From Clostridia bacterium (GTDB lineage Bacteria > Bacillota > Clostridia > Oscillospirales > CAG-272), in NCBI GenBank assembly GCA_017623355.1, contig JAGAPG010000021.1, forward strand, positions 1 to 54,372: DNA of 54,372 nucleotides, given 5' to 3'. Numbering within the stretch: the stretch's first letter is position 1; every line of letters begins with the position of its first letter. The translations under genes and the position numbers were made by a program. Positions 1,091-17,029 of the stretch are shown here, piece by piece. The notes beneath the pieces were generated by a model. That model was not told where the DNA came from. It saw only the letters and a program-made list of their open reading frames with translations, and searched no databases.

Positions 1091-2242
1091 TTGAAGTGAT
1101 GAAATCGCTTCTTTTATATTTAGTATAAGAGCATCCGCCTCAGATGCGGTATTATCAGGACACAGACTGATTCGTATTGAGCTATCTGCCTCATCCTCGG
1201 TCTTTCCGAAGGACAAAAGCGCCTTTGATGCTTTTTTTGCTGAATTTGATGAGCAAGCAGAGCCTGACGAAACATATACCCCCTTAGAGGAAAGAAAATG
1301 GAGCAAAGTTTCGCTTTTTATGCCATCGACAGTAACATTTATGATGTGCGGTGCGTGTTTTGTCGGCTCGTTTACAGTTACGCCAAGCGCTAAAAGTCCA
1401 TTTGATATGTATTCTCTCAGCTCTTCCATTTTAGATATTTCAAAAGAAAGTTTTTCAAAATGCTCCTGTGCAGCTTCTCCAAATGCGGCTATACCGTAAA
1501 CGTTTTCCGTACCCGAACGGAAATTATTCTCCTGACCGCCGCCGTAAACTATCGGAACAAGCTTCTTTGCCTTTATTATATCGGGTGAAACATAAAGCGC
1601 ACCCGTTCCCTTCGCGCCGTTTATTTTATGAGCGCTAAGGCTTATAAGATCTGCACCGAGAGATCTTTTTGTGAATTTCACCTTCATATAGGATTGAACG
1701 CAATCGGCATGAGTAACGGCATCGGGAGAAAGACCTTTTACAATATCAAACGCCTCTTTCAGATCATAAAGCGCGCCCGTTTCGTTATTAACGTGCATAA
1801 AGCTTGCCAAAATAACGTCTTTGGCATTGTCAGCTATAAAATCAAGATCAAGCCTGCCGTTTTTGGTAGGAACTCTTATAACCCTATAGCCCTCGTTCTC
1901 AAGTGCTTGCGCCGAAGCTTCGATTGACGAATGCTCACCCTCGGTTATAAGTATCTTTTCATTTCCCTTACGCTTCTTTGAATTTACAACTCCGAAAACA
2001 GCAATATTATTGCTTTCCGTTCCGCCCGAGGTAAATATAAGCTCTCCCTTCACTCCGCGCGTTACACCCAAAGTAGCAAGTATCCTTGCTCTTGCCTCGC
2101 CTACGATCTTTTCAGCGTCAAATCCCAATGCGTGAAGCGATGACGGATTAGCGTAATGTGAATTTATCACATCAATCATTTTTTTCTGCGCTCTTTGCGA
2201 CATTTTTGTCGTGGCGCTGTTGTCAAAATATATGCTTTCCAT
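1079..2242 (-). CDS. Cysteine desulfurase (NifS/IscS family, PLP-dependent)
   Basis: A 387-residue class V aminotransferase that takes sulfur from cysteine for Fe-S clusters or tRNA thiolation. It shows the N-terminal YFDNSATT motif, the PLP lysine in SAHKINGAKG (about Lys206) and the active-site cysteine in SSGSACSS (about Cys330). I chose ATG at 2242, one base after the stop of the upstream lipoprotein gene. An in-frame TTG at 2251 would add three residues and overlap that gene. There is no clear Shine-Dalgarno, so translation is probably coupled. It is the last gene of the run starting at murD. The NifS versus IscS subgroup and the sulfur acceptor cannot be decided; thiI lies 50 kb away in this window and needs such a partner. 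Confidence 0.93.
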   Translation of the reverse strand: MESIYFDNSATTKMSQRAQKKMIDVINSHYANPSSLHALGFDAEKIVGEARARILATLGVTRGVKGELIFTSGGTESNNIAVFGVVNSKKRKGNEKILITEGEHSSIEASAQALENEGYRVIRVPTKNGRLDLDFIADNAKDVILASFMHVNNETGALYDLKEAFDIVKGLSPDAVTHADCVQSYMKVKFTKRSLGADLISLSAHKINGAKGTGALYVSPDIIKAKKLVPIVYGGGQENNFRSGTENVYGIAAFGEAAQEHFEKLSFEISKMEELREYISNGLLALGVTVNEPTKHAPHIINVTVDGIKSETLLHFLSSKGVYVSSGSACSSNSAKKASKALLSFGKTEDEADSSIRISLCPDNTASEADALILNIKEAISSLQKKK

Positions 2243-2243
2243 A

Positions 2244-2786
2244 TCAGTCAAATTTAAATTCAGTCAATATTGTATTGAACGTTTCAAGATTTTTTTCAAA
2301 AAGCTCTCCCATAGAAGTATAGGTTACGCAATAAAAGCTTGCATTCGTATAAGCGACGATCACTATAAAATTATAAGTAGCGCCGTTGATGGTTATATCA
2401 ATATAATGCTTTTTTGCGTCTACTCCGTCAAGCTTTACATCCTCGCTTGATTTTTCAACGATGCTTCCGCCAAGATCGTCCTTTAAGCTCGGAATATAAT
2501 AATCATTATACCAAACCTCAAGCGAATCCGATTCATTTGACATACGGTTTCGCTGAATAACGCTGACGCTCGTTCTATCCTCATCGGAAACGTACGCACA
2601 GGTCATAGCAGAGCTATCGTCAACAGCCCAGCTATTTGGCACGAAAAGATAATAATCAACATAGTCAAGGTCGCTGACAAGCTTATATCCATCGGGGGCT
2701 TCTGGCTTGTCCTTGCACGAGCAAAGAGCCGTCAGTGCCAGAACAATAACAACAAGAAGCGACGTTATCTTTAAATATTTTTTCAT
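2244..2786 (-). CDS. Small lipoprotein, paralogue of the upstream gene
   Basis: A 180-residue protein with a lysine start, a hydrophobic segment and a lipobox ending ...LCSC (Cys23), so it should be a membrane-anchored lipoprotein facing out. The mature part begins with PDGYKLVSDLDYVDYYLFVP, matching the next gene upstream (PEGMQLLSDNDVFTAFVP), so the two are a diverged tandem duplication. The layout, with a short beta-rich start and a conserved W-x-DD, recalls the PsbP/DcrB-like fold, but this is inference. It overlaps its upstream neighbour by 4 bp (ATGA) and is followed one base later by the cysteine desulfurase start. Function unknown. Confidence 0.85.
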   Translation of the reverse strand: MKKYLKITSLLVVIVLALTALCSCKDKPEAPDGYKLVSDLDYVDYYLFVPNSWAVDDSSAMTCAYVSDEDRTSVSVIQRNRMSNESDSLEVWYNDYYIPSLKDDLGGSIVEKSSEDVKLDGVDAKKHYIDITINGATYNFIVIVAYTNASFYCVTYTSMGELFEKNLETFNTILTEFKFD

Positions 2787-3340
2787 TTTAAGATTATATT
2801 TTCACGAGTTGCCTCGTAATCCTCCAAATTATTTTCAAAAAGCTCCGCTACGGAGTTTGCGCGGTAGCTTATCTCCACTATATTTTCTCCCTTTTTCATA
2901 AAGGTAACGCGATAATAATAAATATCCTTATCAGCTCCCATTTTTATAGAGAAGGTTATCTCCTTGCCAGCACTTACAGTTCCCTTTCTGAAATCAAGGA
3001 CACCTGAGCTTTTTTCAAAATCCTCTCCGTAATTATTTTCAAAGCTGCTTAAATATTCGTTAGCATAAGCCTCTATATCCTTATCAGCCTCAACCTTACG
3101 AGAGGTTATCTGTATTTGTGCATAAAACGCCTCATACTTATCCGTTATCTCGTACTGCCCGTCATGAGCCGTACACAAGCGCGTATCGTCAATTATCCAA
3201 TTTTCAGGAACGAACGCGGTAAACACATCGTTATCGGAAAGGAGCTGCATTCCTTCGGGGACATCAACACCGTCGCCGCTGCAAGAAGAAAGGGCAAGCA
3301 GTGTAACTATAAGAATCAAGATTGAAATTATTTTTTTCAT
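2783..3340 (-). CDS. Small lipoprotein, paralogue of the downstream gene
   Basis: A 185-residue predicted lipoprotein with lipobox LSSC (Cys20). The mature domain shares the PEG..LLSD....FVPENW.IDD start and an ELFENNL segment near the end with its neighbour (ELFEKNL there). It starts inside the stop codon of the third M42 peptidase gene (ATGA overlap) and its own stop overlaps the next lipoprotein start. It is therefore translated as part of the murD to cysteine desulfurase run. I do not recognise a named family and assign no function. Confidence 0.85.
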   Translation of the reverse strand: MKKIISILILIVTLLALSSCSGDGVDVPEGMQLLSDNDVFTAFVPENWIIDDTRLCTAHDGQYEITDKYEAFYAQIQITSRKVEADKDIEAYANEYLSSFENNYGEDFEKSSGVLDFRKGTVSAGKEITFSIKMGADKDIYYYRVTFMKKGENIVEISYRANSVAELFENNLEDYEATRENIILK

Positions 3341-4287
3341 TTCAAAACCTCTATAAGCTTTATAACATTTTTAACATCGTCAATATCAATGACCTCCGCA
3401 GTTGTATGACTGTTTTCACAGGGAATAGATATTGCGCCTATTTCTGCTCCGTGAGCTACGCTCCTCACAAGAGAAAGATCATATCCCGAAATCTCATCTG
3501 CCTCGTACTGATATTTTATTTTATTTTCCTCAGCCAAGCTGCGAAGCATCTCAATAACAGACAACGAGCAGGCTGCACGGATATCCTTTATCTTTATTCC
3601 CGCGCCCATACCGAGCTTTATATCCGAGCATTCGCGTTTTGCTATACTAACCGAAATTATAATATCCGGAGCTATTGAATATACTGCTGTTTTCGAGCCG
3701 TAATTCTCAGCCTGAGCATGCGTCGTAAAGACAAAGTAAAGATCGTTTTCGTTATCCTTTATTGCTTTTATCGCCTCTATGAGTGCAAGGCATCCTATTC
3801 TGTTATTAAGCGGTCTGCCCGAGTATTTTGTTGCTCCGAGCTTTTTAAGCCTTGGCACACAGGTAAACGAATCCATTACGCTAACGCGTCTTTGAGCTTC
3901 CTTTTTGCTTTTTGCACCGATATCTATAAATACGTTTTCATAGGTTGGCTTTTCGCCGAGGGTCTCAGGAATCAGTATTCCGCAAACACCGTTTTCGGAA
4001 ACAACATCCGAATATATTGCGGCATCGTAATTGAGTCCGCGTGTGCTGCAAACGCGTATAAGTCCGTTCTCATCAATATGATTTACGAAAAATCCGCACT
4101 CATCCATATTTGTGTAAATGAGTATCCTTTTTCCGTTTCCCTTTTTATGAGCGATCAGATTCCCTATCTTATCATTCCATATCTCGCTTACGAACGGAGA
4201 TATTTCCTTTTCTATCACCTTGCTGATATCTCCCTCTCTGCCGCTAACGCCTTGAGTATACATCAGCCTTTTAAGTAAATTTATCAT
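3337..4287 (-). CDS. M42-family peptidase homologue lacking catalytic residues (probable pseudoenzyme)
   Basis: A 316-residue M42 (TET/FrvX/glutamyl aminopeptidase) homologue, slightly shorter than its two upstream paralogues. The fold motifs are kept (DKIGNLIAHKKG, MDECGFFVNHIDENGLIRV, NDLYFVFT, AEVIDIDDV), but the metal site is not. The ligand histidine of AHMDE is Asn60, the bridging aspartate of DDR is Asn161, the Glu-Glu pair is Ala191-Gln192, and the next ligand aspartate is Ser214. Only the C-terminal histidine (His294) remains. The reading frame is intact and coupled to its neighbours by ATGA overlaps, so this is not ordinary decay. A structural or regulatory subunit of a mixed oligomer is plausible. 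The family call is firm; inactivity is inferred from the residues. Confidence 0.85.
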   Translation of the reverse strand: MINLLKRLMYTQGVSGREGDISKVIEKEISPFVSEIWNDKIGNLIAHKKGNGKRILIYTNMDECGFFVNHIDENGLIRVCSTRGLNYDAAIYSDVVSENGVCGILIPETLGEKPTYENVFIDIGAKSKKEAQRRVSVMDSFTCVPRLKKLGATKYSGRPLNNRIGCLALIEAIKAIKDNENDLYFVFTTHAQAENYGSKTAVYSIAPDIIISVSIAKRECSDIKLGMGAGIKIKDIRAACSLSVIEMLRSLAEENKIKYQYEADEISGYDLSLVRSVAHGAEIGAISIPCENSHTTAEVIDIDDVKNVIKLIEVLK

Positions 4288-5309
4288 TTGATCTCCTTTT
4301 TTGAAACTGAAGCTATTATTGCTTTTCTCGTGCTTTCGATATCCTCAAGCTTAACAACACTCGCTTGAGAATGAATATATCTTACAGGCAAGGAGAATAT
4401 TGCAACTTTTGCTCCGTCTGCTCCTCTTTGATAGCTTGCGGCATCTGTGCCCGCAAACGTAAAGCCCTTTATCTGATACTTTATTTCTTCCTTATCGCAT
4501 CTTGACATTATCTCCTTTGTGAAGGCTCTGTCATATATAGTCGCTCCGTCCATAAAGGACATAGCAGGGCCACAGCCCGTTCTTGCAATTTTTTTATGCT
4601 CGGGAGTGTTATAAAGATCATTTGCGGTAGTTCCTTCAACTACTATTGCGTAATCGGGATTGTATCTCTCGGAAATATAGTTAACTCCGCTTTTTCCCGT
4701 TTCCTCTCTTATGGTAAACGCAAAATACAGATCGTATTCAAGCCGATCGGCCTTATCCTTAAGCTCGTTATAAACACTGCACAGTATCGCGCATCCTCCT
4801 CGGTCATCTATTGCCTTAGCCTTTATGAAATCTCCGCCGAGCTCGACAAGATCGCTGAAAAAGCAGAAATAGTCTCCAATCGAAACAAGCTCAAGCGCTT
4901 CCTCTCTGCTCCTTGCGCCTATATCTATATACATATCATCTATTTCGGTGCGTGTCTTTTTTTCCTCGTCGCTCATAAGATGTATCGGCTTCGATGTGAT
5001 AGCTCCGAGTACGCCTCTTTCACTTATAACTCTTTTAGAAAGCAAGACGATAGGATCAAAGCCTCCGACAGCGCCAAAGCCGATCATTCCGCTATCGGTT
5101 ATCTCGGTCACCATAAATCCGACCTCGTCCATGTGCGCGCTGAGAAAAAGCTTCGGTTTTCCCTCACTTGCGATACGCGCAACAATATTGCCCATCTTAT
5201 CCTCAAAGACATTCTCACTGCCGATTATATCCTTTATAACGGCTGCAACTCTTTTTTCATTTCCCGTAGGCCCAAAGGCGCTGCAAAGTCTTTTAAGAAG
5301 TTTTTTCAT
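4284..5309 (-). CDS. M42-family metallo-aminopeptidase
   Basis: A 341-residue M42 aminopeptidase. Members form large hollow (TET) particles that trim peptides in the cytoplasm using two metal ions. The expected residues are present: AHMDEVGF (His59, Asp61), IDDRGG, REETG with the catalytic Glu pair, VVEGTT in place of the more common VDV motif, and YIHSQASV near the C-terminus. No signal peptide. The start overlaps the stop of the upstream M42 gene (ATGA) and follows a GGAGGAG-like ribosome site. It is the middle of three tandem paralogues. Whether it prefers acidic or hydrophobic N-termini cannot be read from the sequence. Confidence 0.92.
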   Translation of the reverse strand: MKKLLKRLCSAFGPTGNEKRVAAVIKDIIGSENVFEDKMGNIVARIASEGKPKLFLSAHMDEVGFMVTEITDSGMIGFGAVGGFDPIVLLSKRVISERGVLGAITSKPIHLMSDEEKKTRTEIDDMYIDIGARSREEALELVSIGDYFCFFSDLVELGGDFIKAKAIDDRGGCAILCSVYNELKDKADRLEYDLYFAFTIREETGKSGVNYISERYNPDYAIVVEGTTANDLYNTPEHKKIARTGCGPAMSFMDGATIYDRAFTKEIMSRCDKEEIKYQIKGFTFAGTDAASYQRGADGAKVAIFSLPVRYIHSQASVVKLEDIESTRKAIIASVSKKEIK

Positions 5310-6340
5310 AGCTCCTCCTTTGGCGCATACGCAAATGCAAGTAATATGTCGGAAAGTGTAGCTATATCCTTTAAATTAACTATCTCACTGTACGAATGCA
5401 TAAATTTAAGCGGAATACTCATAACCGCAGTTTTAACTCCTTCTCCGGAGAGCATTATTCTTTCGTTATTAGTTCCCGTGGAGCTTACCTCCACTACCGT
5501 CTGGCAATCAAGCTTACAAAGCGATGCTATTTCAAGTATCCTTCTTGAAATATCTCTGTCAGTCGAGGACGAAATATCTACGCTCGGACCTTTTTCACAC
5601 TCTATCGTTTCCTTTGATTTAAGACCGTGCTCTCTTGCAAAATTAACGTCTGTTATTATCGCAATATCTGGCTTTATATCGTAGGCTGCAACTCTTGCAA
5701 GCATATTCCCTGTTTCCTCGTGAGCGGAAAGCACTACATAAAGATCGTATTCAAGCTTATCTCTTTCGGCTCTTGATGCCATATCTATAAGCGCGCACGC
5801 GCAAGAGCGATTATCAAGACTTTTTGAAACAACGTAGGAATTACTAAGCTCATAAAGCTCGCCTCGACAGGCTACTCTATCACCTATGGAAACGATTTTT
5901 TCAAGCTCCTGCTTGGTATATCCCGTATCTACAAGAAGATCCTTAAGCTCAGGCGTACCTTTTTCATTTTTACCTCTTGAAAGATGAGGCGGAACTGACG
6001 AAAAAACGCCTCGTATTTTTTCTTTTCCGCATATTACAACCTCACTTGAGGGCAATATCCGAGTATTTATGCCACCAAGGGCGCTCACCTTCAAAAATCC
6101 GCCATCAAGTATTTTTGTAACGCAAAAGCCTATCTCATCAAGATGCGCGTCAAGCATAAGACGCGGAGCGTTTTTTTTGCTTGATCTTTTTATCATAACA
6201 AGATTTCCGACCTTATCTGTATATGTCTCATCGAAAACGCCCTCACATAATGCAAGCACCTCGGTGTGAGCATCCTTTTCTTTTCCGGAGACCGCGACAA
6301 TATCGGTAAGTCCTTTTAAAAGCTCTTTTATTTTTTTCAT
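5306..6340 (-). CDS. M42-family metallo-aminopeptidase
   Basis: A 344-residue M42 aminopeptidase, the first of three tandem copies. It keeps all expected metal and catalytic residues: DAHLDEIGF (His66, Asp68), SLDNRS with the bridging aspartate, SAHEETGN with the Glu pair, ITDVNFA, and KFMHSYSEI with the C-terminal histidine. It is cytoplasmic by lack of a signal. Its ATG overlaps the murD stop by one base (TAATG), and its own stop overlaps the next M42 start by 4 bp. The link to murD suggests co-expression with cell-wall precursor synthesis, perhaps in peptide recycling; that link is inference. Confidence 0.92.
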   Translation of the reverse strand: MKKIKELLKGLTDIVAVSGKEKDAHTEVLALCEGVFDETYTDKVGNLVMIKRSSKKNAPRLMLDAHLDEIGFCVTKILDGGFLKVSALGGINTRILPSSEVVICGKEKIRGVFSSVPPHLSRGKNEKGTPELKDLLVDTGYTKQELEKIVSIGDRVACRGELYELSNSYVVSKSLDNRSCACALIDMASRAERDKLEYDLYVVLSAHEETGNMLARVAAYDIKPDIAIITDVNFAREHGLKSKETIECEKGPSVDISSSTDRDISRRILEIASLCKLDCQTVVEVSSTGTNNERIMLSGEGVKTAVMSIPLKFMHSYSEIVNLKDIATLSDILLAFAYAPKEEL

Positions 6341-7635
6341 TAAAGTTTCCTTACTATCCTTGAAAACGCGTTTGAGCGCTCTTTATAATTTGCAAACATA
6401 TCAAAGCTTGCAGAGGCGGGCGAAAGCAAAACACTATCACCCGATACGCAAAGAGAATATGCTCTTTTCACTGCGTTATCAAAGATCTCTTCTACAAAAA
6501 TTTTAGTTTTTGACGATTTTACAGCATCATATATTTTCGGTGAGTTTTCACCGCATAAAACAACACACTTCATCCCATCCACCGCGGCAGAGAGCAAAGA
6601 ATAATCAAGATTTTTATCGTATCCGCCCAAAATAAGGGCTGTTTTTGCTTTATCAAACGACTCAAGGGTGCTTTTCGTCCTTGACGGAGTGGAATCTATT
6701 GAAGAATCGTAAAAGCGAACTCCATTCCTTTCGCAAACAAGCTCCATTCTGCTCTTTACTCCGCAAAATTCATCCGCCGTACGTTCTATACCCGCTTTAT
6801 GCGCATAGGGATACGCGGCAGCTATTGCCAAGGCGTAGTTTTTTATATTAAAGCTTCCGCTGAGCCGTATTCTTTCCGTCGACAAAAGTCTTTCTTCGTT
6901 GTAGCATATATATCCGTTTTCTATATAAACACAGTCGCTGTTTTCTTTTTTAGCATAGGGCTTATCAAACGATACGCATACAAGTCTTTTATCAGCGGAA
7001 ATATCAGATATTGTCCGTCTTAAATACTCGTTATCGGTATCGAGGATTATGCGCGAGGCATTTTTCACAATTCCGAGCTTTGCTTCTATATACTCATCAA
7101 ATGATAAATGCCAATCAAGATGATTTTCCGTTATATTCGTTATAACGGCGGTATCAAGATACGGATAATGATCAAGCAGCTGAAAGCTCGAAAGCTCACA
7201 AACTATATGCGTTTTATCACTTGTAAAATGTATTTTATCAATAAGCGGTATTCCTATATTTCCGCACAAAAGCGTTTCTTTTCCACTGTTTTTCAGTATC
7301 TCCGAGATAAGAGTAGACACTGTAGTTTTCCCGTCCGAGCCCGTCACACCTATTTTTATACCGTGAGCCTTTGAAAGCGCATATTTTATCTCGGTAGTAA
7401 TTATTCCTTCCGTCTTTATTTTTTCGGGACGGAGCGCAGGCGAACGAAAAACTATATCCTCATGAGAGTCAAGATAATCTCCGCCGTAAACGTTAACCAC
7501 TCCACAGGGTGTATCCACCCTTTCGGGTGTGCGCACAAGAAAGCTGACGCCGTTATTTATAAAATAGCTTGCAAGTGCCCGATTTGATACTCCATAGCCG
7601 ACGAGTGATAGGGATATGCCCGAAAAAGTATTCAT
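6340..7635 (-). CDS. murD: UDP-N-acetylmuramoyl-L-alanine--D-glutamate ligase
   Basis: A 431-residue Mur ligase that adds D-glutamate to UDP-MurNAc-L-Ala in the cytoplasmic stage of peptidoglycan synthesis. It has a short Rossmann-like N-terminal domain, the ATP-binding GVTGSDGKTT loop (96-105), the central NITENHLDWH motif, and a C-terminal domain with ILGGYDKNLDYS typical of MurD. The start follows AAGGAGATAAGT. It is 47 bp from the ddl stop. A TTGAAA-17-TATAAT match lies in that gap but would leave an 8-nt leader, so read-through from ddl is as likely. It heads a seven-gene run with no gap longer than one base. Confidence 0.94.
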   Translation of the reverse strand: MNTFSGISLSLVGYGVSNRALASYFINNGVSFLVRTPERVDTPCGVVNVYGGDYLDSHEDIVFRSPALRPEKIKTEGIITTEIKYALSKAHGIKIGVTGSDGKTTVSTLISEILKNSGKETLLCGNIGIPLIDKIHFTSDKTHIVCELSSFQLLDHYPYLDTAVITNITENHLDWHLSFDEYIEAKLGIVKNASRIILDTDNEYLRRTISDISADKRLVCVSFDKPYAKKENSDCVYIENGYICYNEERLLSTERIRLSGSFNIKNYALAIAAAYPYAHKAGIERTADEFCGVKSRMELVCERNGVRFYDSSIDSTPSRTKSTLESFDKAKTALILGGYDKNLDYSLLSAAVDGMKCVVLCGENSPKIYDAVKSSKTKIFVEEIFDNAVKRAYSLCVSGDSVLLSPASASFDMFANYKERSNAFSRIVRKL

Positions 7636-14519: not shown

Positions 14520-14550
14520 AAAAGGAACAGATTGCTCTGTTCCTTTCTTT
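14519..14550. terminator. Bidirectional intrinsic terminator
   Basis: AAAGGAACAGA (14521-14531) pairs with TCTGTTCCTTT (14536-14546), loop TTGC, with T-rich DNA on the right and A on the left. It separates the lipoprotein gene from the convergent Glu-rich protein gene. Confidence 0.87.
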
Positions 14551-14556
14551 ATTATA

Positions 14557-16953
14557 TTATTTTACTCTATATGATACATGAACAGCGTGACCGCCTGTCA
14601 AGATGATCATTTTGAGTGCCGTATCAGAGAACTCGCCGGCTTTAACAGTAAGCTGCTTATCCATCATTCCTCTTGCAAGCACTTTAACTGTTTTTGCTCT
14701 CTTATCGATAAGCTTCTTAGCCTTAAGTGATGCAAGGTCTACAATGTCGCCGTTTTCATAGGACTTAGAAAGTGTATCAATGTTTACGATAGCCTTCTTT
14801 GTATCCTTTTCGGTTATGTATTCAACATCCTCTTCAACCATAGATTCAACAACCTCATCAACAACGAGATCGTCAACCTCATCAGCTGTTACGCTTTCAA
14901 CGTAATGGATCTCCTCAACTGTCTTTGCAGGCTCATGTATTTCAAGAACGAGCTCCTCGTGATCCTCATCAGGTGTTTCCTCGATTACCTCTTCAATAAC
15001 AGGCTCTTCAGCTACCTCGGGCTCTGCTTCCTCTGCTACCTCTTCGATAACAGGCTCTTCAGCTACCTCAGGCTCTGCTTCCTCTGCTACCTCTTCGATA
15101 ACAGGCTCTTCAGCTACCTCAGGCTCTGCTTCTTCTGCTACCTCTTCGATAACAGGCTCTTCAGCTACCTCAGGCTCTGCTTCCTCTGCTATCTCCTCGA
15201 TAACGGGCTCTTCAACTACCTCGGGAACTATCTCCTCTACAGGCTCTTCAACATTCTCGGTTTCAGGCTTAGCTGCCTTAACCATGTTAACATCTGCTAC
15301 GAGAACCTTAACAAGCTTCTTTTGAACAAGCTCCTCGGTTTCCTCATAAGGATATTTTTCAACATAATTAACTTCCTTAAACTTAGGATCCTTCTCTATG
15401 CCGAACTTAGCCATTTCGATATCAACAAGCTCTTTTGCTTTCTTGAGGCCAAGCTGACTCTTGATCTTAACGAGCATGGGAACTGCTTCAAAAATCTTAG
15501 CATCAATTGCCTCGTGGTGATATTTTGTCTTATCAAACTCATAAGGATTGAGAGCACAGTACAAGCAGATTGTCTTTCCGCGGATCTTTAACTTAAAGAG
15601 CTGATCTCTTCCTTTATTGAAGCTATCGAATTTCCAGCTGAATCTTGACTTAACTCCCTTGTATGAGAGGATGTGGTTCTTGATCGCGCTATAGAAATCC
15701 TTAACCGAGTCTTCGGCTTGGATAATGTTTGCCGTGATGCTACGGCTGTATTTGATGTTGATCTCGTTTCCGAGACTGTCGTAGTAAGAGGGGACAATAG
15801 TCGGAGTAATTTCGATTTCGTCTTCTTTATCACCCTCAGCCTCGGGAGCTTCCTCGGCAACGGGGGCGGGCTCTTCTTCAACTGCCTCAGCAATCTCCTC
15901 AGCCTCTTGTACCTCCGGCTCCTGAAACACTTCCTCTGCTTCTTCCTCGACGATCTCCTCAACAGGAGCTTCAGCCTCCGGCTCTTCATCAACGGGAGCT
16001 TCTTCAACGGGTGCTTCCTGAGCGATTTCGGGTTCCTCCTCGACAGCTTCCTCGACAGCTTCCTCGACTGTTTCCTCAACAGTCTCCTCAACTACCTCGG
16101 CAACTTCTTCAACCACTTCTTCGGGTTCTTCTGCAATCTCCTCAGCAGGCTCCTCGATAGGTTCTTCGATTACCTCCTCAAAAAGCTCGGGCTCTTGTTC
16201 GATTGCTTCTTCAGCCTCGAGTGCTTCTTCAACCTCGGGGGCGGGTTCTTCAGCTACTTCCTCAGCCATTTCAGGCTCTGCTTCCTCAACCGTTTCTTCA
16301 ACGATCTCCTCAGCTGCCTCCTCGACAACCTCTTCAGCTATCTCCTCAACAGGTTCTTCAACGATTTCCTCGACAACCTCTTCGGATACATTCTCTGCGT
16401 CAGCGTATACAGGATAGAGCTTAACGGTAACAACTGCATTTGAATCGGGATCCTTATCAAACACAGGTGCTGCTCCGGGTGCGAGCGACCATCCGATAAC
16501 ACCGTCGTCGATGTCAGGAAGCTCCACCTTGATAGGATGAGATTCAACCGTGATTTCCTCTCCGTCCTTATCATTGAACACAACCTCCACTATTGCGTTA
16601 GCATCGAACTCGCAAAGTGTACCGTAGTTCTCATCCCAAACGGCATAGAGTGTGAGAGATTTTGTCATACGGATAGCTTGCTTACCTACAGGAGCTGTTC
16701 CTCTTGTATTAAGACTCCATCCGAGAAATCTCTTGTTCTCTTTTTCCGCCTCAGGAATAGTTGCCTTGGAAAGCCATGAAAATTTCTCTACCGAGATAAC
16801 CTCATCAGTTTCCGGGTCTATGTACGTGATCTTCGTTTTCGCGAAAATAAGTATCGCTATGACTGCAAGACACGCAATGCAGATCACTGCATACAAACCT
16901 ACACTTCCCCCGAGCAGGTTCGCAGCGATCATAAGGGGGTTAAAAAGTTTCAT
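14557..16953 (-). CDS. Membrane-anchored Glu-rich repeat protein with a C-terminal uL15-like ribosomal domain
   Basis: A 798-residue mosaic. It has one membrane helix (about 16-38) and two InlB/Listeria-Bacteroides-type beta modules (about 40-185; motifs GWSLNTRGTAPVG, SLTLYAVWDE and GWSLAPGAAPVF). A Glu/Val/Ala/Pro tract follows (about 189-375). Next comes a conserved-looking basic domain (about 385-555) with KDFYSAIKNHILSYKGVKSR and LKIRGKTICLYCALNP. A second Glu-rich tract with 17-residue repeats precedes the last 76 residues, which match the C-terminal domain of ribosomal protein uL15 (GDIVDLASLKAKKLI, LTVKAGEFSDTALKMI). The start is ATG 16953, since GGAGGA lies 8 bases upstream and the earlier ATG 16968 is in that ribosome site. 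It is monocistronic with a strong promoter. This is not a ribosomal protein gene. The role and topology are unknown. Confidence 0.88.
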   Translation of the reverse strand: MKLFNPLMIAANLLGGSVGLYAVICIACLAVIAILIFAKTKITYIDPETDEVISVEKFSWLSKATIPEAEKENKRFLGWSLNTRGTAPVGKQAIRMTKSLTLYAVWDENYGTLCEFDANAIVEVVFNDKDGEEITVESHPIKVELPDIDDGVIGWSLAPGAAPVFDKDPDSNAVVTVKLYPVYADAENVSEEVVEEIVEEPVEEIAEEVVEEAAEEIVEETVEEAEPEMAEEVAEEPAPEVEEALEAEEAIEQEPELFEEVIEEPIEEPAEEIAEEPEEVVEEVAEVVEETVEETVEEAVEEAVEEEPEIAQEAPVEEAPVDEEPEAEAPVEEIVEEEAEEVFQEPEVQEAEEIAEAVEEEPAPVAEEAPEAEGDKEDEIEITPTIVPSYYDSLGNEINIKYSRSITANIIQAEDSVKDFYSAIKNHILSYKGVKSRFSWKFDSFNKGRDQLFKLKIRGKTICLYCALNPYEFDKTKYHHEAIDAKIFEAVPMLVKIKSQLGLKKAKELVDIEMAKFGIEKDPKFKEVNYVEKYPYEETEELVQKKLVKVLVADVNMVKAAKPETENVEEPVEEIVPEVVEEPVIEEIAEEAEPEVAEEPVIEEVAEEAEPEVAEEPVIEEVAEEAEPEVAEEPVIEEVAEEAEPEVAEEPVIEEVIEETPDEDHEELVLEIHEPAKTVEEIHYVESVTADEVDDLVVDEVVESMVEEDVEYITEKDTKKAIVNIDTLSKSYENGDIVDLASLKAKKLIDKRAKTVKVLARGMMDKQLTVKAGEFSDTALKMIILTGGHAVHVSYRVK
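14986..15213 (-). repeat. 51-bp tandem repeat inside the Glu-rich gene
   Basis: Four near-identical 51-bp units (15010-15213) plus a partial fifth encode the 17-residue unit EEPVIEEVAEEAEPEVA. Near-identity at the DNA level suggests recent expansion or ongoing homogenisation. Confidence 0.93.
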
Positions 16954-16999
16954 ACAATCTTCCTCCATGAGAAACTTATTTTATTTTGTTTATGTTATA

Positions 17000-17029
17000 A
17001 TTATACTACATCTTTTTATTTGTTGTCAA
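17000..17029 (-). promoter_or_regulatory. Strong sigma-A promoter of the Glu-rich protein gene
   Basis: Minus strand: TTGACA at 17024-17029, 18-bp spacer, TATAAT at 17000-17005, about 47 bp before the start codon. Confidence 0.8.

Follow-up and report, generated by a model that had tools for sequence, protein, structure and literature searches.

The minus-strand gene at positions 14,557 to 16,953 of the stretch analysed here (the window, 54,372 nucleotides of Clostridia bacterium contig JAGAPG010000021.1) encodes a 798-residue membrane protein whose end, judged by its profile matches, is a true C-terminal domain of ribosomal protein uL15 (gene rplO) fused to another protein, with the ribosomal copy intact elsewhere in the genome. 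Beyond what an initial annotation of the window had noted, this uL15 piece recurs as a module at the C-terminus of unrelated membrane proteins, a signal peptidase among them, the basic domain ahead of it is DUF5655-like, and a conserved acidic motif precedes it. As to function, we put the chances at about even that the tail is an exapted cytosolic docking module on a membrane scaffold and no longer a part of the ribosome. Domains of ribosomal proteins are reused outside the ribosome in other cases (S1, S4, KOW, and L7Ae), and no description of uL15-tailed membrane proteins was found among the papers listed by the literature searches, as judged by titles and the beginnings of abstracts.

The Pfam family PF00828 matches the whole window protein with 43.3 bits over residues 722-790 (profile positions 1-71/72) and the tail alone with 47.8 bits (E 1.9e-12), both above the cut-off of 21.5. 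The NCBI model for rplO, TIGR01071, gives 41.1 bits for the whole protein and 43.6 bits for the tail, far from its equivalog cut-off of 77.95, and its alignment covers positions 68/75-142 of 144, the N-terminal half of uL15 being missing. The closest solved structures are bacterial uL15 chains, matched at their residues ~75-142. The genome (1.40 Mb in 39 contigs, 77% complete) also contains a normal rplO (G000:C37:19304; 147-aa frame, 75.3 bits; here and below, G, C, L, and f are our labels for genomes, contigs, loci, and families) among neighbours that we named by eye as ribosomal genes. The match to the uL15 C-terminal domain, the restriction of the rplO alignment to its second half, and the separate normal rplO together argue that the domain has been fused elsewhere while the ribosomal copy stayed intact. 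Chance similarity is ruled out by the PF00828 E-values (4.9e-11 to 1.9e-12), and the separate rplO rules out that the window gene is the genome's only uL15. The initial annotation, which had recognised the uL15 domain, called for its comparison with the uL15 family, proposed its reuse on a membrane-anchored protein, and made this depend on a normal rplO elsewhere, is borne out here: a membrane segment lies at about residues 20-38, and rplO is present. Compared with rplO, the tail is homologous over nearly the full PF00828 and shares its core residues; it differs in its missing N-terminal half, in its place behind transmembrane (TM) segments, and in changed positions in the last helix and elsewhere. 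A PF00828 match by itself is thus no proof of a ribosomal protein.

The features of the gene, all on the minus strand, are as follows:
14557..16953, minus strand: coding sequence of the putative uL15-tailed membrane scaffold, 798 aa (translation of the open reading frame, ORF)
17024..17029, minus strand: -35 box TTGACA, exact consensus, 76 nt before the ATG, 18-nt spacer
17000..17005, minus strand: -10 box TATAAT, exact consensus, beginning 52 nt before the ATG
16962..16966, minus strand: ribosome-binding site GGAGG (direct sequence reading)
16840..16896, minus strand: single TM segment, residues 20-38, predicted N-out/C-in by the positive-inside rule (hydropathy; lysine plus arginine, K/R, 0 on the N side and 2 on the C side)
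16639..16791, minus strand: Flg_new/InlB-B-like beta module, residues 55-105 (PF09479, 20.4 bits, below the cut-off of 27)
16399..16617, minus strand: second possible beta module, about residues 113-185 (by eye; no family match)
15796..16383, minus strand: Glu-rich tract 1, residues 191-386 (sequence)
15286..15795, minus strand: basic DUF5655-like domain, residues 387-556 (domain alignment; hhalign to the DUF5655 alignment 97.1%)
14902..15285, minus strand: Glu-rich tract 2, near-identical repeats, residues 557-684 (direct sequence reading)
14830..14901, minus strand: conserved acidic motif VESVTADEVDDLVVDEVVESMVEE, residues 685-708 (iterated profile; 40/57 tailed proteins)
14560..14793, minus strand: uL15 C-terminal domain, residues 721-798 (PF00828 E 1.9e-12 and tail alignment)
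14520..14546, minus strand: intrinsic-terminator-like hairpin and T-run 3' of the stop (by eye only)

The two Glu-rich tracts and the conserved basic domain had been noted before and are confirmed by sequence and alignment; the acidic fraction between the domains is 0.36. Of the two InlB-like modules suggested earlier, the first stands as a weak match, the only one that PF09479 (Flg_new) gives in the window protein, and the second has no backing beyond inspection by eye. In four other window-type or related proteins, PF09479 stayed below the cut-off (L049, L127) or gave no match (L043, L243). The window protein therefore resembles InlB B-repeat proteins by a weak match after its TM segment, and differs from them in that this match is below the cut-off and, by charge, on the cytosolic side.

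The search for other uL15-tailed proteins, which the initial annotation had suggested, yielded many types of carrier. We examined 57 non-rplO proteins with a PF00828 domain from two families of uncultured Clostridia; frames below 215 aa were taken as rplO and left out (L058, L059, L244, and L249 were kept), as were the window copy (L002) and L057, where the tail follows an in-frame TGA. Contig ends truncate six of the 57. No protein of the 57 has more than 18 residues after its uL15 domain, and 52 have 10 or fewer (median 1). A hydrophobic segment taken as TM lies upstream in 48 of the 57, among them 47 of the 51 untruncated proteins; the nine without one comprise five truncated proteins and four untruncated ones (L058, L061, L124, L240). 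The window type combines one TM segment with an InlB-like stretch, Glu-rich arms, one to three DUF5655-like domains, and uL15. Five SipW-like signal peptidases carry uL15 after their third TM segment (L041, L051, L052, L055, L060); in the two tested, L041 and L052, the catalytic region matches the SipW model NF046067 with 50.1 and 51.4 bits (cut-off 190). These carriers are like SipW in that region and in neighbours with a GGVYATW-like motif, and differ from it by scores below the cut-off and by the uL15 tail after the last TM segment. Another type (L048, L094, L135, L243) is large, starts with a signal-peptide-like N-terminus, and continues through a long and presumably outer part and one or more membrane segments to an acidic tail before uL15; it stands next to polytopic carriers (L137, L138), small one- or two-pass carriers (L241, L244, L247, L249), an apparently soluble protein with basic domain and uL15 (L061), and a protein with DUF1508 (two stretches, 104.7 bits) between its last membrane segment and the uL15 tail (L245).

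Some loci depart from these types. L057 (G002:C189), an orthologue of the window gene, has its in-frame TGA inside the uL15 tail. At L058 (5184-6693), a basic-domain ORF and a uL15-tail ORF follow each other in different frames with an A-rich run, which may be a frame change, a sequencing error, or a true split; a real split into a basic-domain gene and a free uL15 gene was set aside, since one frame change at the A-rich run fits better. L192 and L132 resemble each other as repeat-rich proteins of surface type that have a DUF5655-like domain close to their end; a uL15 tail is present in L132, and none was found in L192.

The charge rule and signal-peptidase topology point to a cytosolic tail. 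We counted K/R in the roughly 15 residues on either side of the last TM segment, using our own hydropathy scan and assigning signal peptides by eye; the count is higher on the C side than on the N side in 34 of the 39 proteins scored (L240-L249 lie outside the scoring), and the window protein has none before and two after its segment. A signal peptidase needs its catalytic domain outside the cell, and in the five SipW-like carriers this would place the tail, behind the third TM segment, inside. L243 and L245 combine, by eye, a signal-peptide-like N-terminus and a large N-terminal part with one late hydrophobic segment, again placing the tail inside; L243 is the cleanest case, and L048, L094, and L135 look alike but are less clean, having more than one hydrophobic stretch near the end. 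In L243 (G446:C23), a stretch that looks InlB-like by eye but gives no Pfam match separates the last TM segment from the acidic tail, and hence probably lies on the cytosolic side.

The tail keeps the core of uL15 and departs from it elsewhere. Comparing 47 tails with 70 rplO C-terminal domains by model position, we find K37, G42, K46, L48, A59, I63, G67, and G68 common to both, K46, L48, and G67 being present in 47/47 tails and G68 in 98%. Position 40, glycine in 97% of rplO sequences, is alanine in 85% of tails. At last-helix positions 60/62/64/65/66, rplO has K73/K77/E84/A59/A91%, whereas the tails have I,V,L 79 / M85 / V,L,I 75 / L83 / T77%; tail positions 24 and 26 are lysine in 81% and 77%, and the median net charge is +4 in the tails vs +1 in rplO. 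The fold thus seems to be kept and the surface changed, where 'helix' and 'surface' are our assumption from the known uL15 fold. A tree of 46 tails and 69 rplO C-terminal domains places the two groups on two sides of one branch (support 65/99, not starred); with 74 columns it gives no resolved placement of the tail's origin within rplO. As a separate observation, a short insertion, LIKxVKNAVGLKVLG, stands ahead of the conserved LKVLG strand in the rplO of family f83 (e.g. L111, L116, L117, L122).

Two further modules accompany the tail. A basic domain (mean charge +7.7) occurs in 39 of the 57 tailed proteins, whose linkers are acidic (mean 25% D/E). PF18899 (DUF5655) does not match this domain in the window protein, in L186, or in L095, and gave no match in the own genome. 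A class-wide search with the basic-domain alignment (44 copies) found weak matches in true DUF5655 proteins (L195 and L196; PF18899 49.8 and 42.8 bits), and a profile-profile comparison (hhalign) with eight DUF5655 sequences gave 97.1% over 103 columns (E 7.4e-11 for a single comparison). This alignment makes the basic domain of the window protein a distant relative of DUF5655. It differs from DUF5655 in lacking the GHxGTG stretch of several DUF5655 rows, in not being recognised by Pfam, and in its setting, as it occurs in membrane proteins and not behind NucS-like domains; classic DUF5655 accompanies NucS-like nuclease domains, whose NucS matches stay below the cut-off. The idea of a uL15-like repeat within the basic domain was rejected (hhalign against the uL15-tail alignment, 1.3%), and sequence searches gave no solved relative for the domain and nothing convincing for DUF5655. 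It occurs in 9 of 292 class-sample genomes, in some only as true DUF5655.

The basic domain also occurs without uL15, for example in an 808-aa membrane protein of the own genome with a Glu-rich arm (L186; G000:C37:98000-108000, 1485-6767). Its cluster comprises a small secreted-looking ORF, an archaeal-type signal peptidase (TIGR02228 73.7 bits, cut-off 51.85), the 808-aa protein, and a second small secreted-looking ORF; the 808-aa protein, possibly DUF5305-like, received no family from Pfam or NCBIfam. Likewise without assignment is the N-terminal region of an 834-aa protein (L189:5012-7513; no Pfam match) that ends in two DUF5655-like domains. The second module is a ~22-residue acidic motif before uL15 (VESVTADEVDDLVVDEVVESMVEE in the window protein), found by an iterated profile in 40 of the 57 upstream stretches across unrelated architectures, with a lax inclusion limit (0.5) and three weak matches among the 40 (L046, L124, L136; 6-9 bits). 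No family name was found for it.

Searching 57 genomes (our own and 56 relatives) with PF00828, we found tailed proteins in 22 of the 29 genomes of the window's genus, counting our own, and in two further genomes of the family, G029 and G030. Across the own family (59 genomes, 58 genera), tails occur outside the genus in ten genomes of ten genera (G029, G030, G415, G418, G422, G423, G426, G431, G442, G446), and family f83 has 18 tailed proteins in 16 of 61 genomes. In a class sample of 292 genomes searched with the tail alignment, a second match appeared only in the own genome and in G227 and G264, both of f83; the remainder gave one match or none (13 none), and the matches listed, which do not include the weakest, have rplO-like frames. 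A phylum sample (299 genomes, E <= 1e-18, a limit that would miss divergent tails) returned 29 matches outside the own genome with frames of 148-213 aa, and the 11 fetched all begin with the N-terminal half of rplO. Weak matches in G000:C39 (L003, by eye ribonuclease-Y-like) and G050 (L062) do not resemble tailed proteins. An origin in mobile elements found no support: tblastn with residues 387-798 gave no match at E 1e-5 in 50,697 phage and 72,556 plasmid records, viral contigs lying outside the scan. Each of the 32 named loci of the basic domain lies in a metagenome-assembled genome; deer, goat, and sheep guts are the origin of many.

Both tail and basic domain are under purifying selection. 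Of the 14 closest pairs of tails, 13 have a finite dS, and their ratio of nonsynonymous to synonymous substitution rates (dN/dS) spans 0.02-0.16; the 14 closest pairs of basic domains span 0.01-0.07. Across all pairs, whose synonymous sites are near saturation, the median ratio of the corresponding proportions (pN/pS) is 0.34 for the tail and 0.22 for the basic domain. The signs of real expression seen earlier are reinforced as well: the promoter is an exact TTGACA-N18-TATAAT, and the codon index, 0.721 against 22 own ribosomal-region ORFs, is third among the 23 window genes scored and within the range of these ORFs against themselves (0.58-0.84). From promoter and codon index we infer high expression.

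Given that one conserved and changed C-terminal domain, located by charge at the inner end, recurs on many unrelated membrane proteins, we read it as a probable docking tag. The window protein would be an abundant single-pass membrane scaffold, anchored by a short N-out/C-in helix, whose long and flexible acidic arms hold the basic DUF5655-like domain in the cytosol (one copy in the window protein, up to three in relatives) and whose very C-terminus presents the acidic helix-like motif and the uL15-derived domain. The tail would bring this scaffold, SipW-like signal peptidases, large surface proteins, and polytopic proteins to a shared cytosolic partner, possibly contacted through the last helix, turned hydrophobic, and the extra lysines near positions 24-26. 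The separation of tails from rplO in the tree, the purifying selection, the glyA-like neighbour, and the spread of the acidic motif over unrelated architectures also speak for this reading. Docking and the shared partner are what we infer from these patterns, and we favour a protein as the partner over ribosome or RNA, or the tail itself. Several observations weigh against this reading. The charge is opposite in L132 (three K/R before, none after), tied in L052 and L137, and wrong in L123 and L130, whose segments lie inside a folded domain, as does the segment behind the favourable count of L054. The tail is patchy beyond the genus (10 of 57 other family genera sampled; 16/61 f83 genomes), and seven of the 29 same-genus genomes, some of them incomplete, gave no tailed protein in the PF00828 search, so that the tail may not be universal even in the genus. 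The tree separating tails from rplO is weakly resolved, and the iterated profile found the acidic motif in none of the five SipW carriers, which may therefore dock differently.

It is conceivable, if rather unlikely, that tail and basic domain bind 50S particles or RNA and so keep ribosomes or their assembly intermediates close to export enzymes at the membrane, in line with the ribosome tethering suggested by the initial annotation. The kept uL15 core, the more basic character of the tails, the positive charge of the DUF5655-like domain and the link of its classic relatives to NucS-like domains (below cut-off), the probably cytosolic position, and the signal peptidase among the carriers would all suit such a tether; the missing N-terminal half, the alteration of residues conserved in rplO, and the normal rplO, which should fill the ribosomal site, speak against it. 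For this possibility only, the E. coli proteins YqjD, ElaB, and YgaM offer a parallel, being described as membrane-anchored proteins linked to ribosome hibernation with a proposed ribosome association (PMC10502375); they differ in being anchored by the C-tail, YqjD associating with 30S by its N-terminus, and the likeness drawn here is one of description. We also think it unlikely that the tails associate with one another, or with a neighbour's DUF5655-like domain or acidic arms, and cluster at the membrane without an outside partner. The newly hydrophobic last helix and the joint presence of basic domains and acidic linkers in tailed proteins fit such assembly, and we count in its favour that the modules also occur apart, the tail without basic domain on SipW-like proteins and the basic domain without tail on the 808-aa protein; many genomes, however, showed one tailed protein only.

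An extracellular soluble part, with the uL15 fold adhesive or wall-binding, is very improbable: InlB/Flg_new modules are usually extracellular, but the flanking charge opposes this orientation and the architecture of L243 and L245 puts the tail inside. That the fusion is an assembly chimera or a recent, functionless accident we consider barely credible, as the fusion and its gene order are repeated in many assemblies under strong purifying selection, even though the named loci are all metagenome-assembled and L057 and L058 carry an in-frame TGA and a frame change. The broadest extension of docking, that the uL15 domain is a general address tag for membrane proteins in a lineage of gut Clostridia, coupling export and surface machinery to the translation apparatus or its RNA, appears quite doubtful to us. 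The tail's partner, once found, would show how these bacteria organise the inner face of their membrane and whether translation takes part.

The gene has a conserved neighbour. Its ORF runs from the ATG at 16953 to the stop at 14557-14559, and a second in-frame ATG at 16968 overlaps the GGAGG ribosome-binding site. A glyA-like gene is its divergent neighbour, and farther out lie genes that by eye resemble fur, secG, and rnr. Of 21 same-genus loci of the long form, 17 have a glyA-like gene adjoining the tailed gene, and the remaining four (L034, L037, L050, L059) are at contig ends. The small secreted-looking neighbours of the SipW-like genes, which may be TasA/CalY-like, were named by neither NCBIfam nor Pfam. 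Each of the five SipW-uL15 genes is followed by an ORF with the N-terminal motif GGV[YF]A[TV]W, presumably typical of SipW substrates, and four of the five (not L052) are also preceded by one. In B. subtilis and C. perfringens, adjacently encoded biofilm matrix proteins are processed by SipW or depend on it for their secretion (PMC4551309, PMC7395162).

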